Below the pieces are notes generated by a model. The model worked only from the letters and a program-made list of their open reading frames with translations. It was not told where the DNA came from and ran no database searches. 64,000 nucleotides of DNA from Bacteroidetes bacterium MED-G20 (lineage in GTDB: Bacteria > Bacteroidota > Bacteroidia > Flavobacteriales_D > Parvicellaceae), in contig CAJJCR010000008.1 of NCBI GenBank assembly GCA_905182745.1, positions 124,001 to 188,000 on the forward strand, read 5' to 3'. The position numbers and the translations under genes were made by a program. Below are positions 39,656 through 64,000 of the stretch, piece by piece (within the stretch, counting starts at the first letter, position 1; every line of letters starts with the position of its first letter).

Positions 39656-40603
39656 ATGAAAAAAACTATTACTTACATACTACTTATCATCCTTTCGGGG
39701 AATGTTGTTGCACAACAAGATTATCAAATTACACACTACATGTTCGATAATTTGTCTTTCAATCCAGGTTATGCTGGAATGAGTAAAAATATTAATGCAA
39801 CAATGATTGCAAGGCAACAATGGTCCGGATTTTCAGGTAGTCCAACAACTGCTATGGTCAACGTTCATGCACCTGTTGGGTTAGTTAGAGGAGGTTTAGG
39901 ACTAACTTATGTTTCCGATCAATTGGGTTTCGAGAAAAATAGTATTGTAAGGTTAAATTATTCTTATCATTTACCTATTGGTGCAGGACAATTAGGAATT
40001 GGAGCTAGTATTGGGGTAATTCAAAAAAGTCTTGATGCAGAATGGAGAACTCCCTCAGGAACTAGTTGGGAATTAGACAATTCAATTCCTGGAGTTGCAG
40101 GGACTCAAGGAGGAAGTGTTTCGCAATCAACACCTGATGTAAATATTGGACTTTTTTATTCCACTAAAGAATTATATTTCGGATTTTCAACTACCCATTT
40201 AGGTGGTTTTAATATGGATGATCTAAACATTCAAAACGTTCACCATTATTGGGTAACTGCAGGATTTAATTACGATTTAAATCCAGACATTCAACTTAGG
40301 CCAAGTATTTTAATTAAATCTGATGCCTCATCTTCAATAATGGATGTAAATATTAATGCACTCTATAAAAATATGCTTTGGGCTGGTTTGACTTACAGGT
40401 TTGGAGATGAGATTTCCCCAATGGTTGGTTACAAATATCCATTTTCGGACGGAAGTGTATTAAGAATTGGTTATGCCTATGGAATTACAACAAGCGTTAT
40501 TGGTAACTATAGTAATGGCTCCCACGATATTATGCTAAATTACAATTTTAAAATATCTAAGCCTGCACCAATTGAAAAATCCAAAAATCCTCGTTTTTTA
40601 TAA
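39656..40603 (+). CDS. porP: type IX secretion system membrane protein PorP/SprF family
   Basis: 'QQDYQITHYMFDNLSFNPGYAGMSKNINATMIARQQWSGFSGSPTTAMVNVHAPV'. Confidence 0.93.
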   Translation: MKKTITYILLIILSGNVVAQQDYQITHYMFDNLSFNPGYAGMSKNINATMIARQQWSGFSGSPTTAMVNVHAPVGLVRGGLGLTYVSDQLGFEKNSIVRLNYSYHLPIGAGQLGIGASIGVIQKSLDAEWRTPSGTSWELDNSIPGVAGTQGGSVSQSTPDVNIGLFYSTKELYFGFSTTHLGGFNMDDLNIQNVHHYWVTAGFNYDLNPDIQLRPSILIKSDASSSIMDVNINALYKNMLWAGLTYRFGDEISPMVGYKYPFSDGSVLRIGYAYGITTSVIGNYSNGSHDIMLNYNFKISKPAPIEKSKNPRFL

Positions 40604-40687
40604 AAAATGAAACTATTTAAATCAAATATCGTTATAGGAGTTCCATCAAGCCATTTTTGCTCTGGATTAAAGATAAAAAGCTTTAAA

Positions 40688-42181
40688 ATGAAGAAATTAT
40701 TATATTTTATTTTAGTTGTCTTAACTATTACTAGTTGCACAACACAGTCAAGTAACGGTCATTTAGTAGGAGCCCCAGGAAGACCACTCGGGTTTCAAGC
40801 TGATCCTTATGGTATGTTGTATATACAGTCAGGTGCCTTTAATATGGGCCAAAGTGATGAAGATGTTCCTAATACACATAATAACAAAACAAAAACTGTT
40901 TCTGTTGCTGCATTTTATATGGATCAAACAGAAATTACTAATAATGAATATCGTCAATTTGTAAATTATGTAAAAGATTCTATTGCCAGAAGAATTTTAG
41001 GTGCTGAATTTCAAGATAGATTCCTTATTCCTACCTATGATGATGAGTTACAAGAAAAAGGAGAAGACGAATGGCGATTAAATTGGGACGAAAGATTTGA
41101 TTATATATCTTTTAATCCTGCCAAAGAACAAAATATTGATTACGCTCCATTATTAGCATCAATGTTTTTAAATGAAAGTGACAGATTTTATTCAAGAAAA
41201 GAAATTGACACAAGAAAGTTAATGTTTGAATACTACTGGGTTGATTTGCAAGAAGCTGCTAGAAAAGGTAGACCTTTAGTTAAAAGAATATCAAATTCAG
41301 CTGCAGAAGTAGATCCTGACCATAGAGTTAAAATGAAAAATCCAGATATGGCTTTTCCTGTTGATCCAGGGCAAATTAGTGGTAGAGATTTAAATTTAGG
41401 AGTTAGAAACAGCAAAGGTCAAAACAACGCTATAAGAGGACATGAAGATCGTTCTAGATTTATTATCAAAGAAGTTATAAATGTTTACCCTGATACGTTA
41501 TGTTGGATTCATGATTTCACCTATTCAAATAACGAATATATGACTAACATGTATTTCTGGCACCCAGCATATGACGAATATCCAGTGGTTGGAGTTACTT
41601 GGCAACAGTGTAATGCTTTTAATGTTTGGAGAACTCAATTACTAAATTCGTGGAGAAAAGCACATTTTGAGACTTATGTACAGGACTTTAGACTTCCTAG
41701 TGAAACAGAGTGGGAGTACGCTGCAAGAGGCGGTTTAGATAATAATCCATACCCATGGGGAGGTCCTTATGCTAGAAATTCAAGAGGATGTTTCTTAGGG
41801 AACTTTAAACCTATAAGAGGTCGTTACATGGAAGATGGAGGTTTTCATACTGTAAAAGCTAGTTCGTACCATCCTAATGATTTTGGATTGTACTGTATGG
41901 CTGGTAATGTTGCTGAGTGGTGTAGAACAGCTTACGATGAATCAATGTATGAGTATGGACACGATATGAATACTGAATATGTTTACAATGCATTGGATCA
42001 CGATCCACCTTCAATGAAAAGAAAAGTAATTAGAGGAGGATCTTGGAAAGACATAGGCTTTTATCTTCAAACAGGGACAAGAACTTATGAATACCAAGAT
42101 ACTGCAAAAAGCTATATTGGCTTTCGTAGCGTAATGAACTACCTAGGTAGAGGCGGTCCTAACAGAGAAGGAGATTTTTAA
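40688..42181 (+). CDS. gldK: gliding motility/T9SS lipoprotein GldK
   Basis: Lipoprotein signal 'MKKLLYFILVVLTITSCTTQSS', FGE-sulfatase-like fold 'RLPSETEWEYAARGGLDNNPYPWGG', followed by gldL. Confidence 0.95.
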   Translation: MKKLLYFILVVLTITSCTTQSSNGHLVGAPGRPLGFQADPYGMLYIQSGAFNMGQSDEDVPNTHNNKTKTVSVAAFYMDQTEITNNEYRQFVNYVKDSIARRILGAEFQDRFLIPTYDDELQEKGEDEWRLNWDERFDYISFNPAKEQNIDYAPLLASMFLNESDRFYSRKEIDTRKLMFEYYWVDLQEAARKGRPLVKRISNSAAEVDPDHRVKMKNPDMAFPVDPGQISGRDLNLGVRNSKGQNNAIRGHEDRSRFIIKEVINVYPDTLCWIHDFTYSNNEYMTNMYFWHPAYDEYPVVGVTWQQCNAFNVWRTQLLNSWRKAHFETYVQDFRLPSETEWEYAARGGLDNNPYPWGGPYARNSRGCFLGNFKPIRGRYMEDGGFHTVKASSYHPNDFGLYCMAGNVAEWCRTAYDESMYEYGHDMNTEYVYNALDHDPPSMKRKVIRGGSWKDIGFYLQTGTRTYEYQDTAKSYIGFRSVMNYLGRGGPNREGDF

Positions 42182-42230
42182 AATAAATTAGAATAATTAA
42201 ATAAATACAAAATAATAAAAAAATAAAATT

Positions 42231-43046
42231 ATGAGTTCAGGAGATAGTTTTTTTGAAAGTAAGAAGTTTAAAACAATAATGAAATATGTGTACGGTTACG
42301 GAGGGGCAATTGTTATCATTGGTGCGATGTTTAAAATTCAACACTGGCCAGGTGCAACAATTATGTTAATTGGTGGTCTTGGTATTGAAGCTGTTATTTT
42401 TATGTTATCTGCTCACGAACCGTTACATGAGGAATTAGATTGGACCATCGCTTATCCTGAATTAGCTCTAGGTCACTCAGATGACGACCATACTCCAAAC
42501 GAATTACCAAGTTCTAGTGACGAATCTGTAGTTGAGCAATTAGACAACATGTTAGCTAAGGCTAAGATTGAACCTGAATTAATCGAAAGCCTAGGTGCAG
42601 GAATGAAAAGTTTAAGTGATAATGCTGGTAAACTTGGTGATATAAGTTCGGCTTCTGATGCGACAAACGAATATGTTGATAATTTAAAAGGAGCTTCTAG
42701 TAAAGTTGGAGAACTTTCTAACGCTTACGACCAAGCAGCAAATTCAATTAAAGAAATCACCTCTGTTTCATCTGGTAATTCAAACTTTGGCGACCAATTA
42801 GATAAAGTATCTGGGAATCTAACTCAGCTTAACAATTTATATGAGATGCAGCTAGAAGGTGTTTCTGCACTTTCAAAGGCTAGTGATGAAATGTCTTCTG
42901 GAATTACCAATATTGTATCTAATCTTCAGTCTTCTGTAGATGATACTAAGAAGTACAAAGAAACTATGTCTGATTTAACATCTAACCTTGCTGCTTTAAA
43001 TTCAGTTTATGGAAATATGTTGTCTGCAATGAATGTCAATAAGTAA
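42231..43046 (+). CDS. gldL: T9SS inner-membrane protein GldL
   Basis: 'SKKFKTIMKYVYGYGGAIVIIGAMFKIQHWPGATIMLIGGLG'. Confidence 0.97.
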   Translation: MSSGDSFFESKKFKTIMKYVYGYGGAIVIIGAMFKIQHWPGATIMLIGGLGIEAVIFMLSAHEPLHEELDWTIAYPELALGHSDDDHTPNELPSSSDESVVEQLDNMLAKAKIEPELIESLGAGMKSLSDNAGKLGDISSASDATNEYVDNLKGASSKVGELSNAYDQAANSIKEITSVSSGNSNFGDQLDKVSGNLTQLNNLYEMQLEGVSALSKASDEMSSGITNIVSNLQSSVDDTKKYKETMSDLTSNLAALNSVYGNMLSAMNVNK

Positions 43047-43078
43047 TTAATAACTAATAGTAAATTAAAAATTAGATT

Positions 43079-45088
43079 ATGGGTGGAGGTAAGGAAACGC
43101 CAAGACAAAAAATGGTTGGTTTAATGTACTTAGTACTTATGGCGCTTTTAGCTATGAATGTATCTAAGGAAATTATTAATGCTTTTGTTACATTAAACAA
43201 TAAATTAGAAAGTAGCATAGAACAAGTAGAGTCTTTTAATACCAATCTTTCTGGTGAATTCGCCACTAAACTTGCTACACTTAAAGCAACTGGTGCCCCA
43301 CCTGATGAGTTGGCAAGGGTTGAGTTTCACAAAAACACCAATGATGAAATTGTTGAATTAACAAGACACATGTGTAATGATATTGTGAAGAGAAACTTAT
43401 TTCTATTAATTGCTGCTGCAGATGCAGGTGTTCAATTTTCGGAATTTGACGATATCGAAATGGCTATTATTGATGATGACGCGGATGCTAAAGTAAGACT
43501 TAAGGCATTGGTTAATAAAGTAAACGATTTAGGTGTAATAGCCGTAGATGAACATCATGAATTGCACGGAGCTGAAACAGACCACGATGAATACCACAAC
43601 CCATTGTTTCATATTGATGATGAGGGTTATATTCATATAAGAGATTTATCTTCTTATACTAAGAAAGACGATTACGATACACCTACTAGAATTCTTGCTG
43701 GTGAGAGTTTTGATTTGATAGCTCCAGAAGGTCTTCACCTTATGGAAAATCTACACCATTTTAGAAACGGTCTTATTGCATTAATTGCTAACCATCCTAG
43801 TGATACATTAGAAAATGGAATTGTTTATCAATATAAATTTGACACTACCTTAATTAAGGATCCTGATTTTCTAATAACAGAGGGGAATAGAAAAGACTTT
43901 GAAAAAATAGTAGACTCAATAATTAAATTTGAAATTGAAGAAAATAAGCTAGATCCTAAAGATGCCGAAGCTGTTCGAAATATTTATGTTAGAATGACTA
44001 TACCAAAAAAGGTTATGAATCATGGTGAAGAATATCCTTGGATTTTTGGGCAGTTTGACCATGCTCCTATAGTCGCTGCCTCTGCAGTGATGACATCTGT
44101 TAGATCAGATGTTTTACAAGTACAAACTTTAGCTTCTCAATTGGTAAGTTCTAGAGTAAAAGTACAATCCTTTAATTTTAATAAAATTGATCCGTTGGCC
44201 TTCTCTGCAACTAGTTACATTAATCAGGGAGATTCACTTGGATTAAGAGTAATGATTGCTGCTTACGATTCGTCTGAAGCAATGGAATTAAAGTATTGGG
44301 TAGATGACTCTTCTCAGTTAAAGAAAAATGAGTCTGAACAAGACTTAGCCAATATGAAAACTTTTAAAGGTCGTGCTGGACAGAGTGTTGGTATAACAGG
44401 ATCCGTTGGAGATCACATTCTTTCTGGATTTATAGCCGTTAAAGAAAAAGGAATTAAAAAATGGAAGCCTTGGAAATTTAATTATTCAGTTGGTGCTCCT
44501 AATGCAGCTGTATCTGCAGCTGATTTGCAAGTTCTTTATATAGGTTGGAAGAATAAAATTAAGGTATCTGCATCCGGTTACAAACCCGAATCAATCAAAT
44601 TGTCTGGTAGAGGATGTTCTGTTAAAGGTCCAGATAGCAAAGGTTTTTATATTGCTACAGTTACTAATCCTAAGCTTAAACAGGCTAATTTAATTGTTTC
44701 TGGTATAGATGACAAAGGTAAAACCAATGAGTTGACAAACGAAGTATTTAGAGTTTTCCCCCTTCCAAAGCCTACTGCATATTTTGCTGGTAAAGCAGGT
44801 GGAAATCTAAAAAAAGCAAATGCCGTCAGTTACAAAACATTGAAGGCATCACTTGGTGATAGTCCTTTGGATGTGCCTTATGATGTGGTTAGTTTCACTA
44901 TGTTTACCACCAAGGGAGGTGCTCCTATTGAACTCAATTCTAAATCAAACAGATTAACTCCAAATATGTTAGCTGCAATGAAAAAAATTCCTAAAAATGG
45001 AAGTTTAACATTCACTAGGGTAAAAGTAAAAGGTCCTGGAGGTAGAGTTTCTCAGTTAGAGTCTGGAATCGTACTTAAATTAATTTAA
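43079..45088 (+). CDS. gldM: T9SS inner-membrane/periplasmic protein GldM
   Basis: 'GGGKETPRQKMVGLMYLVLMALLAMNVSKEIINAFV'. Confidence 0.97.
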   Translation: MGGGKETPRQKMVGLMYLVLMALLAMNVSKEIINAFVTLNNKLESSIEQVESFNTNLSGEFATKLATLKATGAPPDELARVEFHKNTNDEIVELTRHMCNDIVKRNLFLLIAAADAGVQFSEFDDIEMAIIDDDADAKVRLKALVNKVNDLGVIAVDEHHELHGAETDHDEYHNPLFHIDDEGYIHIRDLSSYTKKDDYDTPTRILAGESFDLIAPEGLHLMENLHHFRNGLIALIANHPSDTLENGIVYQYKFDTTLIKDPDFLITEGNRKDFEKIVDSIIKFEIEENKLDPKDAEAVRNIYVRMTIPKKVMNHGEEYPWIFGQFDHAPIVAASAVMTSVRSDVLQVQTLASQLVSSRVKVQSFNFNKIDPLAFSATSYINQGDSLGLRVMIAAYDSSEAMELKYWVDDSSQLKKNESEQDLANMKTFKGRAGQSVGITGSVGDHILSGFIAVKEKGIKKWKPWKFNYSVGAPNAAVSAADLQVLYIGWKNKIKVSASGYKPESIKLSGRGCSVKGPDSKGFYIATVTNPKLKQANLIVSGIDDKGKTNELTNEVFRVFPLPKPTAYFAGKAGGNLKKANAVSYKTLKASLGDSPLDVPYDVVSFTMFTTKGGAPIELNSKSNRLTPNMLAAMKKIPKNGSLTFTRVKVKGPGGRVSQLESGIVLKLI

Positions 45089-45089
45089 T

Positions 45090-46013
45090 ATGAAATTTTT
45101 ATTTAACATATCGTTTATACTTTTATTATCTAATTCACTTTTAGCTCAACTGCCTGGTTCAGGTATAAGCTTAGAGTCCAATGTTTTAGATGGTGTCTAT
45201 ATTCAAGAACATATTCCTACTAAAAGAGTTGTTTCTTATATTCATCTAAGAGAAGCAGACGTCATGTGGAGTAAAAGAATTTGGAGAGTTTTAGACTTGA
45301 AGGAAAAAAAGAATCACAAGCTTTATTATCCTTTAGAACCACAAAACGATAGAATTTCCTTATTTGAAGTCATGAAATATGGAGCCATGGAAGAGGGATC
45401 TATCACCGTATATGACCCTGGTACTGATTTAGATGATAAATTTAGATATCCTGTTAGGCCTGCTAATGGTAACACCAATAGTCCAGTATTTAAAAAACGT
45501 CTCGAAGCTATGTTCGGCTATGCTAATTCCAGGGATTCAGTGGACGAGAATGACGACCCAGTTACAGATATGAATGGAGACAAAATAATTGTGGAATTCA
45601 CTTCTTTATACACCTCAAGTGAAATTGTTAGATATGTTTTGAAAGAAGACTGGTTCTTTGATAAGCAAAGATCTATGTTGGATGTAAGAATTATTGGTAT
45701 TTCGCCTGTAGTTTTAGGTATTAATCCTGAGACACAAGAAGTAGTAGGTCTTAAAAAACTTTTTTGGTTGTACTTTCCAGAGTGTAGGTATATTTTTCAG
45801 AACTTTTTTGTTTACAACCCTGATAACGACGCTCAACGAATGAGCTTCGATGATTTATTTTGGAAAAGGGATTTTTCCTCCTTCGTTCAAAAAGAAAGTA
45901 ATGTCTTTGATAGAAAGATTTCTCCAAACTGGGACGGTTTGGATGCACTTTTAGAATCAGAAAGGGTAAGAAATGAAATTTTCACATTTGAGCACGACTT
46001 GTGGCATTTCTAA
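45090..46013 (+). CDS. gldN: T9SS protein GldN
   Basis: 'WSKRIWRVLDLKEKKNHKLYYPLEP...SLFEVMKYGAMEEGSITVYDP'. Confidence 0.96.
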   Translation: MKFLFNISFILLLSNSLLAQLPGSGISLESNVLDGVYIQEHIPTKRVVSYIHLREADVMWSKRIWRVLDLKEKKNHKLYYPLEPQNDRISLFEVMKYGAMEEGSITVYDPGTDLDDKFRYPVRPANGNTNSPVFKKRLEAMFGYANSRDSVDENDDPVTDMNGDKIIVEFTSLYTSSEIVRYVLKEDWFFDKQRSMLDVRIIGISPVVLGINPETQEVVGLKKLFWLYFPECRYIFQNFFVYNPDNDAQRMSFDDLFWKRDFSSFVQKESNVFDRKISPNWDGLDALLESERVRNEIFTFEHDLWHF

Positions 46014-49736: not shown

Positions 49737-51051
49737 CTAATCTTTGTATTCCATTTTAGTCCATGGCTCATAAATAGCACCTCTTATTCTATTGTCTTTA
49801 CTGTAGCCATATGCTCCGTCATATACCCAAAATATTTGAGTGATAATGGTTCCTACAAATCCTCTTTTGGTGTCAATCCAAAAATGGGTGCCTTCGTAAC
49901 CGCCACCTATCCATAGTCCTTCGTCACCAATTCCTCTATCTAAGTAAGTTTTTCCACTCACCCATAGATTATATCCATTGTAACCATAGGAATTATTTAA
50001 TTGGGTCTGGGGAGAAGTAAGATCATCAATTGTAGTTTCTTCTAAAAATCTATAGCCGTTGAGCGTTCCTTTATTAAGAAGCATTCTTAAAAAATCTGAA
50101 TAGCCGTTGGCAGTTGCAATCATTCCCTCTCCACCAAGATAAAGTTGATGTTCTGGACGATAATCAGGTACATCTTGACCAAAAATATCTAGTTCTCCTA
50201 GCTCAGCAGTCCTTAATATGGAGTCTTTTCCGGAAAACCTAGGAAGCATGGTAGCTCCTTCTGGAAGATCGTAAGCCAATCCTTCTATTTTCATAGGATC
50301 TGTAATACGTTCTTTAACTAGTTCTGCCAATGTTTTTCCGGTAGCTCTTTCACAAACTAGTCCCAAAACGGTAGTATTCATTCCATAGTAATAGTAAGAG
50401 CCTGGATGTTGACAAATCGGTAAAACTGCCAATTTATTGATGAGATCTTGACTGTTCTCGGCCGTAGCTACATTTTTTTCTGCTATGGCCGAATCTAAAC
50501 AACCTAGGTTGGTGGTAGAATAGTAAAATCCAGCTTGATGGTTTAGAAGATGAACAATGGTCATTACCGAATCGTTTTCTACATATTTTATTGGACATGG
50601 TTCTTTTCTTGAAGAGTCATCTTCGTACCAGTTTATAGAGGCTATTTCCAAACTGTCTTGGGTTACAGCAACTTTTAAATCACTAAATTCTGGTATGTAT
50701 TTAATTACCGAATCGTTAAGGGAGATAATTCCATCTTCCATTAGGTCTAATGCCAGACAAATGGTTACAATTTTACTCATAGACCAAATTCTAATCCAAG
50801 AATCTCCATCTATATTTTCATTGGCTAGTAAACGCTGGTTTTTTTCTAAATTTTCATAGGCTACAACGCCATTAGAATCTTCTAGTCTTGTATATATAAA
50901 GGGTATATTTCTCTATCTACAAATGTTTGGGTAATGCTATCTATTTGTTGTTATTGGTTATCTCTAGATAAGACTTTGGCTCTGTTTTTTTTTCTGAGCA
51001 GCCAATAATCATAAGAAAACATAAGAAAATTAGGAAGAGAGATTTTTTCAT
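49737..51051 (-). CDS. serine hydrolase (beta-lactamase/esterase family) lipoprotein, frame broken near 50.8-50.9 kb
   Basis: ORF 49737-50780 'MSKIVTICLALDLMEDGIISLNDSVIKYIPEF'; upstream lipoprotein signal read from ATG at 51051 (MKKSLFLIFLCFLMIIGCSEKK). Confidence 0.85.
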
Positions 51052-52759
51052 TTTTTTAATTTTAATGGTGGAGATGAATACTCTAACTTAAAAACATCGA
51101 ATGCTGCAAAGTTAATACTTTTAGTACCATTGCTAGTTGCGTATAATCCTAGATGGGCTCCTGTATACCCTTCGGAAAGTAATATGTCGCTATTGGTAGT
51201 TTCAAATAATTCCCAAAGATCGTTGGATTGGTATCTAAAATAGTACTGGTAAGTATTGTCTTTTGCTATTACTTTAAGCTCTATATAGTTTTTGAATTTT
51301 TTGCCCATTACCAAGTCTTTTTTAATAATGGGATTTTTCTTTTTGTCGTTGATTACTAGTTGAAGTACGTTTTCTTTGTCCTCCCTTTTCACGTCAAAAA
51401 GTAGGTAGTTGTCGTCTTTTTGAATAAGACAAAGACCCGCTTCTTCCCCATCTAAAGTAGGTTTGAATCTCATGGTGGTAGATACCTCAAAATTGGTTTC
51501 TTTTTGTTTTATCCCCATAAAATTATAGCCTGTTCTCTCTTTTATGGTGGGCTCTTTACAGTACATGGTAAGATAGCCGGAGTTGGTAGTTAGGTCATAG
51601 CTGTTCTCTAAAGGAACTCTTCTATGGGTCCAATCTTTGGATAAGTAGTTTTCTTGAAACTCGTATTCCCTTGGTGTTGGAACATAGATAGAATCTTTAA
51701 TGGGAAGAAAGTAAGAATAATTTTTTTCTATTTTCCCAGTGGAGGGATTGCAAACAGGCCAATTGTATTTTATTTCTTTCCACCAGTAGGGTTCTCTTTC
51801 CCATTTTACAGGAAGTATTAAGGTTTCTCTTCCCATGTTAGAAGCTCTATTTACTTCGTTTCTAATTCCTAGGCAAACCATTCTCCACTCACCATTAGGA
51901 AGCTCAACCATATCGGCATGGCCAGTGCTGTTGATCCAATAATCGTAGGAAAGATGTCTGGTGGATAGAATTGGATTTCTGTCATTGGCATCGTAAGGCC
52001 CAGTTATATTGTTGCTAGCTGCTATCATCACAGCGTGGTTAAAACTTGTTCCTCCTTCGGCAATTAGTAAATAATACCAGCCGTCTTTTTTATAAATATG
52101 CGGTCCTTCTGCCCAAGTTCCTTGACAGGCGCCTCTCCACAAAAAATGTCTTTCTCCTACAAGCTGAAAACTTGTGGAGTCTAGTTCTTGAATCCATATT
52201 TCTCCTTCTCCTTGGAAGTTTGGATTTTCGGGAGCGTGGTTCCATGTAGTAGATCTTACCATCGTCGTCAAAGAAAATGTGGGGATCTATTCCTGGAGCT
52301 CCTTCCACAACTATGGGGTCGGACCAAGGTCCCTCTGGCTTAGAAGCTGTGATAATGAAGTTAATCATTTGGGCTGGTTCGTCTTTTTTAGGCTGGTATA
52401 CGTTGGTAGTAATAATGTAAAACTTTCCATTGTGGTAGCGAATGGTAGGGGCGTGAATTCCTCCGTTAGACTGTACATCTACCAAGATTCATTCTTCCTG
52501 TACATTGTTCTTTTCGGTGCAGTCCATGGCCTATTAAAGTCCAGTTGGCCAAGTCTTTACTATGGTGAATGGGAAGCCCTGGAAAATACTCAAGTGAGGA
52601 GTTGACTATATAGTAATCTTCTCCCACTCTACAGATAGAAGGATCTGGATATCCGCCTTTTATAATAGGGTTGGAAAACATAGGTATTTGCGCCAAAGCT
52701 TGGAAGTTTACTAAGCCCAATAGCAGTCCTAGAAATAGTATTTTAACTTTGGTTTTCAT
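51048..52759 (-). CDS. secreted glycoside hydrolase family 43-like protein with C-terminal beta-sandwich domain, split by indels
   Basis: ORFs 52466-52759 (signal peptide, 'GGYPDPSICRVGEDYYIVNSSLEYFPGLPIHHSKDLANW'), 52090-52485, 51048-52271 ('GTWAEGPHIYKKDGWYYLLIAEGGT') are collinear. Confidence 0.9.
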
Positions 52760-52796
52760 TTAAAGTATTAAATTTAATAATTCTAATGGGTTTATA

Positions 52797-54158
52797 ATGC
52801 GATGTAGAATTCAATATTATTTAATAGCTATTTTTTCTTTAGCCTTCGTTTTTTCTTGTGATAAAAAGGAGGATCCTATAGATCATGAAACAGATGGTTA
52901 CCAGCAGTACGGAACGCCAGTTGCCAATATTCCAGACAATGAAGAATTGGTGATGTACGAAGTTAATTTAAGAGCTTTTAGTAGTAATGGCGATTTACAA
53001 GGCGTTCAAAATAGACTAGATAATATTGCAGAATTGGGCGTAAATATTATTTGGCTCATGCCCATTCAGACCAATGGTGGTCCCATTAATTCTCCTTATG
53101 CTATTTCCGATTATTATATGGTGGATGAGGAGTATGGAACTTTAGAAAATTTAAGAACTTTTATAGCTGAGGCGCATAACAGAGGAATGTTAGTCATTCT
53201 AGATTGGGTGGCCAATCATACAGATTGGGATAATACTTGGATGGCAGATAGCAGTTGGTATTCGCAAGATGCAAATGGAACTATTATTCACCCACCAGGT
53301 ACCAACTGGACAGATGTAGCGGATCTTAATTTTGATAATGAAAATATGGCTAATCAGATGATAGATGCCATGAAATATTGGGTGCTAGAAGCCAATGCCG
53401 ATGGGTATAGATGTGATGCGGCTGATTATGTGCCATTTGAATTTTGGAAAAGGGCTATTGATAGTTTAAGATCCATTCCCAATAGAGAATTGGTACTATT
53501 TGCAGAAGGAGCTAGAAACGATCATTTTGAGGCTGGTTTTGATTTGAATTTTGATTGGAGTTTTTATAATAGAACGGTAGATATATTTGCAAATGGCACC
53601 AATGCCAGTTATTTGGGAAATCAGCATAATATAACTTATGGCGCTGTTCCTGAAGGAAAAGAAAAAGTACGATTTACTACCAATCACGACCAGTGTGCTT
53701 GGGATGGAACGGCTATAGATATATATGGTGGTTTGGATGCTTCTTTGGCTGCTTTTGCAGCTACACTTTTTTATCCTGGTGTGCCACTTATATATACAAG
53801 TCAAGAGATTGGGTGGAATATTCAGATTCCATTTTTTACTAATTCAGTTTTAAATTGGAACTATGGTACTAGCACTTTAGAAAAGTATAAAAAATTAATG
53901 AATGCCTATACTAATAATCATGAATTTAAATCTGGTGCGTTAAATGACTATTCGAGTAGTGATGTTATTTGTATTAACAGAGAAATTGTTGGTAATAGTG
54001 CGTGGTGTTTGATAAACTCTAAAAATACTATTTCTAGCTTTTCTTTACCACTTGAGCTTCAAAACTTTAGTGGAACTAATTTATTAGATGGTAGTAGTTT
54101 TGTGGTAAATGGAAATACTATTTCTTTGGCTCCTTTTGAAACTTTAGTTTTTAAATAA
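52797..54158 (+). CDS. alpha-amylase family (GH13-like) lipoprotein
   Basis: 'FSLAFVFSCDKKED' lipobox; 'LGVNIIWLMPIQTNGG', 'GMLVILDWVANHTDWDN', 'ADGYRCDAADYVP', 'FTTNHDQCAWD'. Confidence 0.92.
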   Translation: MRCRIQYYLIAIFSLAFVFSCDKKEDPIDHETDGYQQYGTPVANIPDNEELVMYEVNLRAFSSNGDLQGVQNRLDNIAELGVNIIWLMPIQTNGGPINSPYAISDYYMVDEEYGTLENLRTFIAEAHNRGMLVILDWVANHTDWDNTWMADSSWYSQDANGTIIHPPGTNWTDVADLNFDNENMANQMIDAMKYWVLEANADGYRCDAADYVPFEFWKRAIDSLRSIPNRELVLFAEGARNDHFEAGFDLNFDWSFYNRTVDIFANGTNASYLGNQHNITYGAVPEGKEKVRFTTNHDQCAWDGTAIDIYGGLDASLAAFAATLFYPGVPLIYTSQEIGWNIQIPFFTNSVLNWNYGTSTLEKYKKLMNAYTNNHEFKSGALNDYSSSDVICINREIVGNSAWCLINSKNTISSFSLPLELQNFSGTNLLDGSSFVVNGNTISLAPFETLVFK

Positions 54159-54316: not shown

Positions 54317-57300
54317 TTGAGCAAATTTCCCCACTACATATTATGTTTTGTTTTAGTTCTTTTTGGACTAAATAATTATGCTCAAACATATATATTGAAT
54401 GAAGACTTTTCATCTGCAAGTGGAACTACTCCTCCTAGTGGTTGGAGTAATAATACAGTTACTGGAACTCCAACTGATTTATGGCATTTTGACAATCCTG
54501 GAAGCAGATCTATTGGTTATCCAATTATAGGGACGTATGCTATTTTTGATAGTGATAGTGTTTCTACTGGTGGAGGATCTGAACAAGTAGAATTGATATC
54601 CACCACACTAGATTGTTCAGGAGCTAATGACGTACTACTTTATTTCGATCATTATTTTGCTGGATCTAGCGGAGCTACTGGAAAAGTAGAAGTTTTTGAT
54701 GGGTCTAATTGGAATCTTGCAAAAACTATTACCGATAGTACTAATGGTGTTGTAAATCAATTAATTAATATTTCATCCTTTGCTGGTGCTGTTAGTAATG
54801 CTAGGGTTAAGTTTGTATGGAGTGGTAATGCAGATAACTTTTGGGCGGTAGATAATATTCAAGTATATGCGCCACTTGCATTAGACGCTTCTATTTCTGC
54901 TATTTCTAGTCCTATTATTCCTTTTTCTGCTGGTACACACAATATCGAAGCTAGTTTGTCTAATACTGGTGGTTCGGTATTAACTAGTGCCACTATAAAA
55001 TGGAGTTTAGATGGGGTTTTGCAATCTAGCTATTCTTGGAGCGGCAGTTTAGCAGTGGGTGGTACAGAAAGTAATATTGTAATAGATAATCATAATTTTT
55101 CTGCAGGATTATTACAAACATTAAGGGTATGGGTAGAAAATCCCAAAGATTGCAATGCATACAATGACACTACACTACTAGAAAATTTGGTAACGCCGCT
55201 TAACGGCGTGTATACGTTGGGAGGTGTTAATCCTGATTTTGCGAGTTTTAGTGAGTTAGCTACGGTACTAAATAATGCTGGTCAGACAGGTCCTGTGACG
55301 GTGAATGTTCGAGACGGAGTTTATACGGAGCAGTTCATGGTTTCAAATATTCAGGGGAATAGTTTTACAAATACCTTGACGATACAAGGGGAGAGCGGAG
55401 ATAGTAGTTTAGTGACCTTAGAGTATTCAGATGTAACCAATGTGATTTTTGAGTTTAATCGAGTTAAGGGGCTGTTTTTAGCTGATTTGTGTTTTAAATC
55501 TCTGAATACTCCATGGACAGGTGGTGAAGCTTATAAGATAGTAAGTTGTGATACAGTACGTATAAGTAATTGTTTATTTAAATCATCTGCGTCCCAGAGT
55601 TACTATATGGGTCAGTTTTATATAAATGGAAGTAGAGGAGTTTTAGTGGAGAATAATAATTTTAATGATAATGCTCCGATTTATATTTATTCATCTGCGA
55701 CTGGATATAGCGATGTACGAATATTGAATAACAGTAATATTAAAGGTTATTGGCCCCTGAATATTGTGAGTTATAGTTATCATCTTGGAATGAAGGCTGT
55801 ATTGAAGGGCAATAGTTTTTCAAGAAATGGCTATGATAAATATAATGCTGTAATGAATGGTAGTTTAGATACATTAATTTTTGAGGGCAATTCTCTTTTG
55901 CCATCTTCAGATGGAGATTATAATTTCAGTATGGCGGATGGGGGACTAGGAATCTTAAAAAATAATACGTTTGAAGGTAGAAGATTAAAGGTAGAAAATA
56001 TTGATAGCATTATATCCAATAGATTTCTTGGAGTTGAGAATGAAAATGCTCTTTATATAAATTCTGGTTCTTCATTTATAGCTAATAATTATATTTCGTT
56101 GAGTGGAGCCTTAACAAGTACAGGTTTGTATGTGAGAGATATTAGTGGAGTTAAAATAGTAAATAATAGCATTGAGAATATAGGAACTTCAGCTTCATCT
56201 TATGGGCTAAGGTTAGAAGCAGGAGCGACGAATATAACAGTTAAGAATAATATATTTTCTACAAAGAATGGTGGAGTTCCTGTGCAAGTTCCATCAGCTT
56301 TAACTAATCCAGACTGGGATTACAATTGTTATTATACAAGTGGAAATATAATTGGAAGCTACAATGGGACGAACTATAGTAGTGTATCGGCATTGGGAGC
56401 GGCAATGGGCAGTGATGCAAACTCGTTGAATGTGAATCCATTTTTCATGTCGGATACCAATCTTACAACCAACCAAGGGCAGTTAAAAGCAGGAATTTCG
56501 ATAGCTGGAGTTACTACAGATATAGATGGAACGGCAAGAGGAAATCCATCTACTATTGGAGCCAAAGAATATGCGGGATGTAATAACGATGCTGGAATAA
56601 ACAGGGTAATACATCCTACATCGCCACTAAGTAGTACTACCAACAATATAGAAGTAGAGCTGAGCAACCAAGGCACCGGTGGTTTATTCTTTGCAAGAAT
56701 TGGCTGGAGCGTGAATGATGTGTTACAGACGCCGTATAATTGGAGTGGTAATTTGTCTAGTCAGAATACTACGAATGTGACTATAGCCAATAACCATACT
56801 TTTAGTGGAGCTAGTATTTACAATTTAAAAGCTTGGATAGAGACTGTAAACGGATCGGCAGATTGCAATGCATACAATGACACTACACTACTAGAAAATT
56901 TGGTAACGCCGCTTAGCGGCGTGTATACGTTGGGAGGAGTTAATCCTGATTTTGCGAGTTTTACGTGAGCTTTGCTACGGTACTAAATAATGCTGGTCAG
57001 ACGGGGCCTGTGACGGTGAATGTGCGAGACGGAGTTTATACGGAGCAGTTCATGGTTTCAAATATTCAGGGGAATAGTTTTACAAATACCTTGACGATAC
57101 AAGGGGAGAGCGGAGATAGTAGTTTAGTGACCTTAGAGTATTCAGATGTAACCAATGTGATTTTTGAGTTTAATCGAGTTAAGGGGCTGTTTTTAGCTGA
57201 TTTGTGTTTTAAATCTCTGAATACTCCATGGACAGGTGGTGAAGCTTATAAGATAGTAAGTTGTGATACAGTACGTATAAGTAATTGTTTATTTAAATCA

Positions 57301-60300
57301 TCTGCGTCCCAGAGTTACTATATGGGTCAGTTTTATATAAATGGAAGTAGAGGAGTTTTAGTGGAGAATAATAATTTTAATGATAATGCTCCGATTTATA
57401 TTTATTCATCTGCGACTGGATATAGCGATGTACGAATATTGAATAACAGTAATATTAAAGGTTATTGGCCCCTGAATATTGTGAGTTATAGTTATCATCT
57501 TGGAATGAAGGCTGTATTGAAGGGCAATAGTTTTTCAAGAAATGGCTATGATAAATATAATGCTGTAATGAATGGTAGTTTAGATACATTAATTTTTGAG
57601 GGCAATTCTCTTTTGCCATCTTCAGATGGAGATTATAATTTCAGTATGGCGGATGGGGGACTAGGAATCTTAAAAAATAATACGTTTGAAGGTAGAAGAT
57701 TAAAGGTAGAAAATATTGATAGCATTATATCCAATAGATTTCTTGGAGTTGAGAATGAAAATGCTCTTTATATAAATTCTGGTTCTTCATTTATAGCTAA
57801 TAATTATATTTCGTTGAGTGGAGCCTTAACAAGTACAGGTTTGTATGTGAGAGATATTAGTGGAGTTAAAATAGTAAATAATAGCATTGAGAATATAGGA
57901 ACTTCAGCTTCATCTTATGGGCTAAGGTTAGAAGCAGGAGCGACGAATATAACAGTTAAGAATAATATATTTTCTACAAAGAATGGTGGAGTTCCTGTGC
58001 AAGTTCCATCAGCTTTAACTAATCCAGACTGGGATTACAATTGTTATTATACAAGTGGAAATATAATTGGAAGCTACAATGGGACGAACTATAGTAGTGT
58101 ATCGGCATTGGGAGCGGCAATGGGCAGTGATGCAAACTCGTTGAATGTGAATCCATTTTTCATGTCGGATACCAATCTTACAACCAACCAAGGGCAGTTA
58201 AAAGCAGGAATTTCGATAGCTGGAGTTACTACAGATATAGATGGAACGGCAAGAGGAAATCCATCTACTATTGGAGCCAAAGAATATGCGGGATGTAATA
58301 ACGATGCTGGAATAAATAGGGTAATACATCCTACATCGCCACTAAGTAGTACTACCAATAATATAGAAGTAGAGCTGAGCAACCAAGGCACCGGTGGTTT
58401 ATTTTTTGCAAGAATTGGCTGGAGCGTGAATGATGTGTTACAGACGCCGTATAATTGGAGTGGTAATTTGTCTAGTCAGAATACTACGAATGTGACTATA
58501 GCCAATAACCATACTTTTAGTGGAGCTAGTATTTACAATTTAAAAGCTTGGATAGAGACTGTAAACGGATCGGCAGATTGCAATGCATACAATGACACTA
58601 CACTACTAGAAAATTTGGTAACGCCGCTTAACGGCGTGTATACGTTGGGAGGTGTTAATCCTGATTTTGCGAGTTTTAGTGAGTTAGCTACGGTACTAAA
58701 TAATGCTGGTCAGACAGGTCCTGTGACGGTGAATGTTCGAGACGGAGTTTATACGGAGCAGTTCATGGTTTCAAATATTCAGGGGAATAGTTTTACAAAT
58801 ACCTTGACGATACAAGGGGAGAGCGGAGATAGTAGTTTAGTGACCTTAGAGTATTCAGATGTAACCAATGTGATTTTTGAGTTTAATCGAGTTAAGGGGC
58901 TGTTTTTAGCTGATTTGTGTTTTAAATCTCTGAATACTCCATGGACAGGTGGTGAAGCTTATAAGATAGTAAGTTGTGATACAGTACGTATAAGTAATTG
59001 TTTATTTAAATCATCTGCGTCCCAGAGTTACTATATGGGTCAGTTTTATATAAATGGAAGTAGAGGAGTTTTAGTGGAGAATAATAATTTTAATGATAAT
59101 GCTCCGATTTATATTTATTCATCTGCGACTGGATATAGCGATGTACGAATATTGAATAACAGTAATATTAAAGGTTATTGGCCCCTGAATATTGTGAGTT
59201 ATAGTTATCATCTTGGAATGAAGGCTGTATTGAAGGGCAATAGTTTTTCAAGAAATGGCTATGATAAATATAATGCTGTAATGAATGGTAGTTTAGATAC
59301 ATTAATTTTTGAGGGCAATTCTCTTTTGCCATCTTCAGATGGAGATTATAATTTCAGTATGGCGGATGGGGGACTAGGAATCTTAAAAAATAATACGTTT
59401 GAAGGTAGAAGATTAAAGGTAGAAAATATTGATAGCATTATATCCAATAGATTTCTTGGAGTTGAGAATGAAAATGCTCTTTATATAAATTCTGGTTCTT
59501 CATTTATAGCTAATAATTATATTTCGTTGAGTGGAGCCTTAACAAGTACAGGTTTGTATGTGAGAGATATTAGTGGAGTTAAAATAGTAAATAATAGCAT
59601 TGAGAATATAGGAACTTCAGCTTCATCTTATGGGCTAAGGTTAGAAGCAGGAGCGACGAATATAACAGTTAAGAATAATATATTTTCTACAAAGAATGGT
59701 GGAGTTCCTGTGCAAGTTCCATCAGCTTTAACTAATCCAGACTGGGATTACAATTGTTATTATACAAGTGGAAATATAATTGGAAGCTACAATGGGACGA
59801 ACTATAGTAGTGTATCGGCATTGGGAGCGGCAATGGGCAGTGATGCGAATTCGTTGAATGTGAATCCATACTTTGTTTCGGATACTAATTTAATGGTAAG
59901 CCAGCGACAGCTAAATGGCGCTGGAATATACGTGCCTGGAGTAAATGTAGATATAGACAACGAAGTAAGAAATGCTTCGGCTCCTGACATAGGGGCTCAA
60001 GAATTTGATATTGACTTTGGTTTATTAGAACTTTTACAGCCTACTTTAAGTTGTCTTCACACCAGCTCAGAAGCTATAGAAGTAAGAATTAAACAATATG
60101 GAGATGCTGCTGTTGTAGATATGCAAATTGCCTACCAAGTAAATGGAGGAGCTATCACTACAGAAACCATTAATGGGACTACTTTTAGCGATATAGATTA
60201 CACTTTTACCGCTACTGAAGATTTAGCTGCCATTGGTAATTATGTATTTAAAATGTGGCTGGTTAATTCTTCGGACGATAACCTAAATAACGATACTCTT

Positions 60301-63300
60301 ACAACCACCATATTTAGAAGTAATGTCCCTACTTCCAGTTTTTCTTACGTTCCTTCTTGTGCCAACGAACTTGCTTCTTTTACTGGAACTGCAACTGTAG
60401 CTAGCGGTAGTATTTCTAGTTATGAATGGATTCTGGGAGACGGAAATACCTCTACCATTCAAAATCCTAACCACTGTTTACGATACTTCTGGAACTTATA
60501 GCGTAGAATTTAGAGCATACAGCGGAGTGGGTTGTTTTGGTAGTGAAACCCAAAATGTGGTAGTGGAAACTACACCTGTAGCCAGCTTTACAGTTAACAA
60601 TCCTTGTTCTGGCGATACGACGGTATTTACCAATGCAACTACCATTTCTAGTGGTACTGTAGATTATGAGTGGTCACTAGGTGATGGTACTACCGCCACC
60701 ACACAAAATATAAATTACGATTATCCAGCTATTGGAAATTTTTCGGTTCGTTTAATTGCCACTACCAGTGGTAGCACCTGTAAAGATACCAGCATACAAT
60801 CGGTAGATATTTATCTAGCTTATTTTGACACTACCAGTTTAAGCGGTGATCCTAGTGTGACTTATAACGGAACTATTTACACTGCTTCTACTCAAGTAGT
60901 AGAAAATTTAACTACTATCAATGGTTGTGATTCTGTGAGGGTGACTAATATTTCCGTAAGTGCTCCTACTACTTGGACAGGTGCTGTAGATACAGACTGG
61001 AACAATGTCTCAAACTGGTCTGCTGGAATTCCAGATAATACAGATGATATTGTAATTTCTGGTGGAGGTAATAATCCAGTAATTAATACTGCCGGTGCAG
61101 CATGTAAAAATTTAACTATTTCAAGCGGCGGTTCTGTTACCATTTCTGATGCTTCTTATAGCATAAACTTAGATACTTTAAAAATTGAAAATGGGGCTCA
61201 AGTAACCATATCCAATGGGGCTGTTTATTTAAATAATGTAATTAACTCTGGTACTTTAAATATAAGTGGTGGTACTTTAGATATTGATGACAACTATACC
61301 GCTAGTGGCAATATTACTACCAATATAAGTGGAGGAACTATAAAAGTAGAAGGCAATTGGACATCATCTGGAAATGGATTTGACTCCAACTGGTGGAACA
61401 GTGGAGTTTAGTGGAAGTGTAGCTCAAACTATTAGTTTGGCAGCTGGAAATAATTTTTATGATTTAACCATTAATAATTCTAATGCGACTGAAAAAGTGT
61501 CTGCCCAAGGAAGTGCTTTAGTAGTGAGCAATCATTTGAATATAACAGATGGAATTTTTGAATCTGCTTCTGACTATCATGATGTACCATTAGCATCTGG
61601 ATCATCATTACAATTAACTGGCGACATTACCGTAAGTGGTAATTGGACCAACAATGGAACTTTTACTCACAATAATCATACAGTAACTTTTGACGGTTCT
61701 ACTGCTCAATCGATTGCTGGGGCGAATAATTCTTTTTATAATTTAACCATAAATAATTCTTCTTCTGGAATAAATTTAAGTTCTGGTGTTGCCATTACTG
61801 GAACACTGAATTTAACACAAGGGCAGATAGATATTAATTCAATATCTGTAGATTTTAGACCTGGTTCTGATGTTAGTAATGCATCCAATTCTTCCCATAC
61901 ATTTGATGGACCTTTGGTAAGATGGTTTAACTCAACTAATCCATTTACCTTTCCATGTGGAGATGGTACTAATTACAGACCAGTTACTTTAACATCCAGT
62001 AATAGTAACAGCAATAATATGTTTGCATCCTATTTATTTGCTAATCAAAATCAAAGCTCATTAAATTCTTCGCTATCGTCCATAGAAACTTATGGTTGGG
62101 ACATTCAAAGAAGCACTGGTACAGATGGTTTTAATATAACCATTCCATTTGATGCTAGTTATAATATTTCAGATTTTAACAATCTAACTATTGCTATGTG
62201 GGATGGAACCGAGTGGACAGAACTCCCTTCTACAGTTACAGGCACTGCATCCAGCGGAAGTATTACCACCAATAGCCCAGTAAGTGATTTTTCTAATCGA
62301 TTATTTTGCTTTGGGGTATAAGTCAATCCCCAAAACCTACGTTCCAGACGATAATTTTGAGGCTTATTTAGAGACGCACGATGCTAGTGGAAATGTAGTA
62401 AGTGTGGGCGATGCCAATTCTATGGGTGATGGTATTGCAATAATGATTCTGTAACTACTGCCAATATTAGCGGGGTGACTACTTTAAGATGTAATAATCA
62501 AAATATTGCAGATTTAACTGGAATTGAAGATTTCAATTCATTAACAAGACTAGAGTGTCACAACAATTCATTAACAAGTTTAGATGTAAGTCAAAATACT
62601 GCTCTAACTTTCTTTTATTGTTATAACAATTCAATAAGTAGTTTAGATTTATCTCAAAACACTAATGCTTACTACATTGAGGCTAATAACAATCTAGTTA
62701 AGTACTATTAATATTTCTCAATGTAGTTCTTTGTCTTGATTTACGAGTTAATCAATAATTCATTAACCAGTTTAGATGTAAGTCAAAATACAGCTTTACA
62801 TAACATTCAATGTTATACTAATCTTATAACCTCATTTAGATTTAAGTCAAAACACTCTTAGTTCAGATAATTTGTCACAACAACCAACTAACCACTTTAG
62901 ATATTAGCTCAAATACTATTTTGACAGATTTAGGATGCTATGGAAACCAACTAACCAGTTTAGATGTTAGAAATGGAAATAACACCAATTTTACAAATTT
63001 TAATGTCACTGGCAATGCTAATCTTAATTGTATTTCTGTAGATGATATTAGTCATGCTAATACCAATTGGACAGCCATAGATTCGCATACTATTTTCTTA
63101 GACGACTGTGCTTCATATGTTTCTCCAAACGCCGACTTTTCAGCAGATGCCACTCACGGTTTGTCAAGGATTTGCTGTTAATTTTACAGATGCTTCTACA
63201 GGTTCTGCAGGAATTACTTCTTGGAGCTGGGACTTTGGCGATGGAACTACATCTACTTTACAAAACCCAACCCATACTTACAACACCGCTGGAACTTACG

Positions 63301-64000
63301 ATGTTAGCTCTTACTGTAAATGGAAGTGGATACTGAAACTAAGACGGGTTATATTACAGTTACTCAAATTGGAAGCATCTATGCAGATAATTTCGAATCT
63401 CAAGGCAGTTGGATCGGAGATTTTGGAAATACCAATGGATTATGGAATATTTCCTCAGGCCCTACTTCTTCTGTATCTACAGGACCTTCTGGAGCATACA
63501 GTGGCAATAAATATTTTTATTTTGAAACTAGTGCTGGTGGGTTAAATCGATGGTAGTATTGTTTCTGCTGCTATAGATTTATCTTCTCTGAGTGCTTCTA
63601 CATTACTTACCTTTTGGATGCATGCCTGGGGAGATGGCAATAGGCACATTAAACGTAGGGATTGGTAGTTCTCCAAGTGGAACATTTACCAATGTATATA
63701 CTGTTTCTGGACAACAAACTGCCAGTGAAACCGATCCTTTCCAACAAGTATCTATAGATGTTAGTGCCTTACAATGGACAAACGGTTTATCATACAGCTA
63801 AACTATGTAAGGTCTTCCACAGGAACTTCGTTGGAATGGCGATTTGGCCATTGATTTATTAGAAATAAAATCTTGTGTTAGTTGTATTGCCCCTACCAAT
63901 ATTGCGGTAGCTAATATTACAGCTAGCAGCGCTGATCTTTCTTGGATAGCTGGTGGAACAGAAACTGCTTGGAATTTGGAATACGGACCTAAGGGATTTT
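54317..64000 (+). CDS. very large secreted multidomain adhesin-like protein (MAM/cleaved-adhesin-like, CARDB-like, repeated parallel beta-helix, PKD, LRR, FN3-like); many frame breaks; continues past the window end
   Basis: Collinear ORFs 54317-56968, 56965-60501, 60422-61411, 61374-62321, 62475-62711, 62921-63181, 63108-63545, 63320-63556, 63592-63801; signal 'PHYILCFVLVLFGLNNYAQ'. TTG start uncertain. Confidence 0.75.
55148..56860 (+). repeat. tandem repeat copy 1 (1713 bp, 571 codons)
   Basis: Starts gattgcaatgcatacaatgacactacac; nearly identical to copy 2. Confidence 0.97.
56861..58575 (+). repeat. tandem repeat copy 2 (1715 bp, +2 nt relative to copy 1)
   Basis: Same start string; +2 nt near 56962-56977 breaks the frame. 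Confidence 0.97.
58576..59869 (+). repeat. tandem repeat copy 3 (partial, about 1294 bp)
   Basis: Identical start string; diverges after 'ggcagtgatgc' at about 59846-59869. Confidence 0.95.

Follow-up and report, generated by a model that had tools for sequence, protein, structure and literature searches.

Identical beta-helix cores within a genome and their divergence between species in a tandem module array of a candidate T9SS adhesin

The tandem array at positions 55147-59846 of the Bacteroidetes bacterium MED-G20 sequence contains copies of a module whose beta-helix core is more homogenized between copies than are the linkers, yet is the fastest-diverging part of the protein between species, a feature that an earlier note on this DNA had missed. 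We consider it probable that recombination or gene conversion homogenizes this fast-diverging helix module in what would be a T9SS adhesin, perhaps once a new version had been imported. The window, the 64,000-nucleotide stretch that was analyzed, is C8:124001-188000 of a 1.25-Mb assembly that is 69% complete. The principal comparisons are with a same-genus species, G001 (CAJJBV01, FRAM18_bin223; locus L024), and with a distant Bacteroidales MAG, L028.

The repeat copies begin at 55147/55148, 56861, and 58576 and form two full units and one partial unit. A genome-wide search with a 1713-base query gave three matches, all inside the array, confirming the copies and start points reported in the earlier note. 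The constant in-frame period of 1713 bp claimed there is not upheld: copy-to-copy spacing is 1713 bp and then 1715 bp, as that note's own coordinates already gave, and single-base insertions in copy 2, at 56964 and about 56970, break the frame and split the array into two ORFs as assembled. The first ORF (54317-56968, 883 amino acids) is stopped by these insertions, and the second (56965-60501, 1178 amino acids) carries on in the new frame. Copy 3 departs from the repeat after 59846. The features of the locus and of the associated secretion genes are as follows.

39656-40603, plus strand: PorP/SprF family T9SS outer-membrane protein (TIGR03519, 2e-66)
40607-46013, plus strand: T9SS core genes, gldK-like (40607), gldL (42231), gldM (43079), and gldN (45090)
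54317-54385, plus strand: probable signal peptide LSKFPHYILCFVLVLFGLNNYAQ at the start of ORF 1 (translation read by eye)
54386-54898, plus strand: N-terminal MAM-like jelly-roll domain (Foldseek; aligns to five relatives, 74% identical in G001)
54899-55146, plus strand: first CARDB-like linker, outside the repeat, containing a 123-bp segment (54962-55085) that is 99% identical in another species
55147-56860, plus strand: repeat unit 1, predicted beta-helix (core ends at about 56418) and CARDB linker
56861-58575, plus strand: repeat unit 2, 1715 bp as assembled
56964-56970, plus strand: two frame-breaking single-base insertions in unit 2, a probable assembly or sequencing error
58576-59846, plus strand: repeat unit 3, matching unit 1 over 1272 bp (58575-59846)
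59847-60300, plus strand: non-repeated end of module 3, a terminal-type tail that aligns as the ortholog of the tails in the last modules of relatives (77% amino acid identity with G001)
60301-62318, plus strand: PKD and G8-like stalk in broken frames

ORF 1 encodes, in order, an apparent signal peptide (by inspection, a hydrophobic start ending in AQ), a MAM-like domain, a CARDB-like domain, and a beta-helix with its CARDB linker. Pfam detected Beta_helix in ORF 2 (9.9e-14) and PKD past the array, and from there to the contig end broken-frame pieces encode LRR, PKD, fn3, MAM, LamG-like, and cupredoxin domains. The AlphaFold models form a ladder of short strands, with helix and CARDB domain predicted at a pLDDT of 70-78. 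A Foldseek search with the whole 883-residue model listed the MAM domains 8a28 and 2c9a and returned mostly multi-domain beta-galactosidase noise; a single module was folded instead. The best fold matches to the helix and linker of this module were the PL6 beta-helix chondroitinase B (7o78, TM 0.40-0.46) and CARDB (3idu, TM 0.70 over the domain), at only 11-17% identity and with partial TM scores. Searching solved structures by sequence produced a single weak, irrelevant match. Pfam was weak on single modules, and the CARDB call combines Foldseek with a sub-threshold Pfam match. These models predict that each unit is a right-handed beta-helix followed by a CARDB Ig-like linker within a large secreted protein, in agreement with the beta-helix modules read earlier from the sequence. 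PL6-like lyase activity was considered; the fold alone matches, and we make no claim of enzyme function.

Frame changes in the same giant gene run from 60400 to 64000 and on to the contig end, where strain mixture, sequencing error, or decay are possible causes. The orthologous giant gene of G001 (L024, 10600-16300) is also frame-broken several times, at a position not near a contig end. Upstream of the array, on the minus strand, a GH43-family gene (51048-52760) is apparently frame-interrupted and is adjoined by an alpha-amylase-family gene at 52797-54158.

Copies 1 and 2 are exactly identical over 1292 bp (55310-56601 and 57025-58316), copies 1 and 3 over 1272 bp (55147-56418 and 58575-59846), and 1109 bp are exact in all three, an identity that exceeds chance by far. 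The compared helix codons contain neither synonymous nor nonsynonymous differences (dS = 0), in keeping with the very recent duplication or ongoing conversion proposed in the earlier note. The units are 571 amino acids long; their helices are 100% identical in amino acid sequence, and copy 3 overall is 83% identical. The description of the copies as base-for-base identical is correct for the helix core and fails outside it, where copy 2 differs from copy 1 by nine substitutions and the two insertions, all near the ends of copy 2 (0/1292 in the helix versus 11/423 in the junction). The substitutions, which sit in the first 165 bases of copy 2 and around 58317-58404, look like real variants because they are clustered and, with the insertions set aside, almost all synonymous. 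The two 1-bp insertions look like error and probably arose in assembly or sequencing; ORF coverage drops sharply toward the contig end, which agrees with local indel errors there. A codon-usage Viterbi frameshift scan was unreliable, giving zero calls at one setting and false reverse-strand calls at the other, and its calls were kept only if both the ORF lists and direct alignment bore them out.

If the frames were truly broken in the cell, the array would be the pseudogene remnant of a decaying gene. Although frames are broken here and, separately, in the G001 ortholog, we regard decay as very unlikely, given that the copy 2 substitutions are synonymous, the helices keep their open frames of 883 and 1178 residues, dN is far below dS in the N-terminal domain and the tail, and the broken frames run through the contig end generally.

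Amino acid identity with G001 is 44% in the helix, 74% in the N-terminal domain, 77% in the terminal tail, and 82% in two housekeeping proteins. Of the parts compared, the helix differs most between these two same-genus species: identity is lowest, at 25-40%, in module residues 81-360, and reaches 80% in the N-cap.

Homologous multi-module genes are found in several Bacteroidota MAGs, with one to four modules each (one genome per species). Self-comparison revealed tandem units in G001 (period 1737, 96% identity over 1955 bp) and L028 (period 1560, 96% over 1141 bp), and weaker tandem units in L079 (91% over 663 bp); in L025, L027, L055, and others the modules have diverged. The homogenization is again concentrated in the helix: G001 has one difference in the first 1200 bases (helix) and 77 in the next 753, with linkers differing by about 10-17% per 100 bp, and in L028, 1005 bp match exactly while 51 differences crowd into about 200 bp at the 5' edge of this tract. 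In the last module, both here and in L028, an identical helix is followed by the terminal-type tail that alignment finds in common among the last modules of relatives. In a protein tree, the modules of this genome, of G001, and of L028 cluster, with full support, according to the genome that carries them, and those of L025/L027 cluster by position. The same within-genome homogenization in two other genomes points to a recurrent recombination process, not one accident. Other tandem-repeat surface genes immediately precede the array gene in G001 (L024, 4644-5553 and 7299-8498), with periods of about 154 and 147 bp and 73-83% identity. A further genome, G415 (L082, 3-12001), has at least three neighboring beta-helix-module genes in a row, suggesting whole-gene duplication besides module duplication. 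A phage tailspike origin was also considered and is unsupported, with no relatives found in IMG/VR or phage records.

The array could have arisen through length variation only, with recent unequal crossing-over copying the whole unit and selection acting on length and not on helix sequence. Long, highly identical tandem folded surface domains of this kind are described in PMC8201768, and module number in the relatives does range from 1 to 4. We nevertheless judge this account unlikely. Plain duplication would copy the linker too, but the G001 linkers differ by the 10-17% given above against 1/1200 in the helix. Here, copies 1 and 3 have the helix alone in common, and the copies are few, with each module far larger than typical Periscope domains. 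The unlike flanks on either side of the single identical 1272-bp tract in copies 1 and 3 have the shape expected of conversion.

How many modules are present depends on the assembly. The assembled sequence guarantees at least two, because an array that contains the N-side linker, one internal junction, and the terminal tail must contain at least two helices; three are not guaranteed, since the internal junctions are 2.6% apart and each may belong to a separate strain, with assembly having fused the two. Expansion of one or two modules, or two haplotypes laid end to end, with short-read correction or consensus making the cores identical, is an artifact that we find quite improbable. It would account for the indels that disrupt the reading frame in copy 2 and farther downstream as far as the contig end, and the G001 genome (FRAM18_bin223) derives from PCR-amplified HiFi reads that were short-read-corrected and assembled with metaFlye (PMC8254474). 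Against it, beyond the requirement for two helices, the copy 2 differences are clustered and almost all synonymous, unlike random error; the pattern recurs in L028, which by its contig name was built with a different assembler; and the codon-usage boundary described below coincides with the repeat boundary. All three homogenized arrays come from MAGs, in which assembly or consensus building could have accentuated the identity of the cores. In genes of this type, the number of modules read from a MAG is unsafe.

Homogenization by recombination or conversion may have followed the arrival of a new helix. G occupies 53/239 fourfold sites in unit 1, compared with 282/3990 in 21 other genes of the window (range 4-12%; p = 9e-13), 8/120 in the N-terminus of the same gene, and 11/97 in its tail, and the shift in codon usage starts at the left repeat boundary. 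The G001 helix has no such fourfold-G shift. The synonymous codon usage of the unit is foreign-like, which another cause could also explain. A search of 38 other genomes of the family detected nothing related to the helix DNA, and therefore no donor is named. In addition, within the first CARDB linker, the 123-bp segment at 54962-55085 differs from G001 (L024, 10647-10770) at a single base, in surroundings that are about 74% identical, and among 100 relatives it is present only in these two genomes. This segment would fit between-species exchange through the linker, or a shared artifact if both genomes passed through the same pipeline. The helix version now present seems to have entered recently from a relative and to have spread across the array. 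Cassette replacement, in which a hypervariable beta-helix is imported via conserved CARDB and N-cap arms and then converted into every module, is a possibility that we hold only tentatively.

The likely secretion route comes from orthologs and gene neighbors. The orthologs L025, L027, and L028 are intact and end in type B (TIGR04131/CHU_C) and type A T9SS sorting domains, and the L025 and L028 genes are directly followed by PorE-like and PorP/SprF genes. The window holds a PorE fragment besides its PorP/SprF and gldKLMN genes. In the species studied, proteins of this type are anchored by PorE-PorP-type B CTD complexes (PMC9143113). The array protein resembles SprB-like type B CTD adhesins with SprF/PorP and PorE (PMC9143113) in the sorting domain and gene neighbors of its orthologs, and differs in its beta-helix array. 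Because a sorting domain was not found downstream on this contig, which ends in broken frames about 10 kb past the window, we infer T9SS export from the orthologs. They also suggest surface anchoring, and the protein may have a surface binding role. The sorting domains and neighbors agree with the secreted surface protein envisaged in the earlier note, here of the T9SS kind.

In Periscope proteins, recombination alters the number of long tandem domains that are highly identical (PMC8201768, PMC9704523). Adjacent domains of multidomain proteins are usually less than 50% identical, a difference believed to curb misfolding (as cited in PMC8201768). The array falls within the bounds of the Periscope search, tandem repeats of more than 50 residues with at least 80% identity (PMC8201768), given its 571-residue units, fully identical helices, and 83% identity for copy 3 overall. 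It is similar to Rib, SasG, and SHIRT/Sgo_0707 (PMC8201768, PMC9704523) in having long tandem domains, here predicted to fold, with very high DNA identity and thought to be recombinable, and its MAM-like N-terminal domain is a candidate counterpart of the distal functional domain of Periscope proteins. It differs in consisting of three beta-helix and CARDB units of about 571 residues, with the identity located in the helix core rather than the linkers, and in its putative export by the T9SS instead of sortase or autotransporter routes. The PATR/beta-helix repeats of the ShdA autotransporter (in PMC9704523) are also beta-helical surface repeats, varying in number from 4 to 6, but they are short, lie inside one helix, and use another secretion route, whereas here whole helices are repeated. 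Among the papers searched, none dealt with this architecture; the earlier wording of an undescribed variable surface system is nevertheless too strong, since the Periscope class has been described (PMC8201768, PMC9704523). Less ordinary than in that class, the repeated part is a fast-diverging helix that is homogenized more than its linkers.

In the mechanism that we favor, a long T9SS-exported surface protein would carry a MAM-like head, three beta-helix and CARDB modules, and a PKD-rich stalk. Homologous recombination between modules, by gene conversion or by unequal crossing-over and then conversion, would overwrite the helix cores with one version, leaving them identical inside a genome and very different across species, with the conserved linkers and helix N-caps forming the ends of the exchanged tract. 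We infer conversion from the identity pattern, the divergence, and their recurrence in three genomes. The same homology would allow changes in module number and possibly length variation, and copy-number switching is plausible by comparison with Periscope proteins.

Whole beta-helices of 400 residues stay identical in a protein in which they change fast between species. If cassette replacement is true, the whole protein would swap its binding face at once. Two questions become testable: whether natural T9SS adhesins come in different lengths, and whether gene conversion renews all of the binding modules of an adhesin together.
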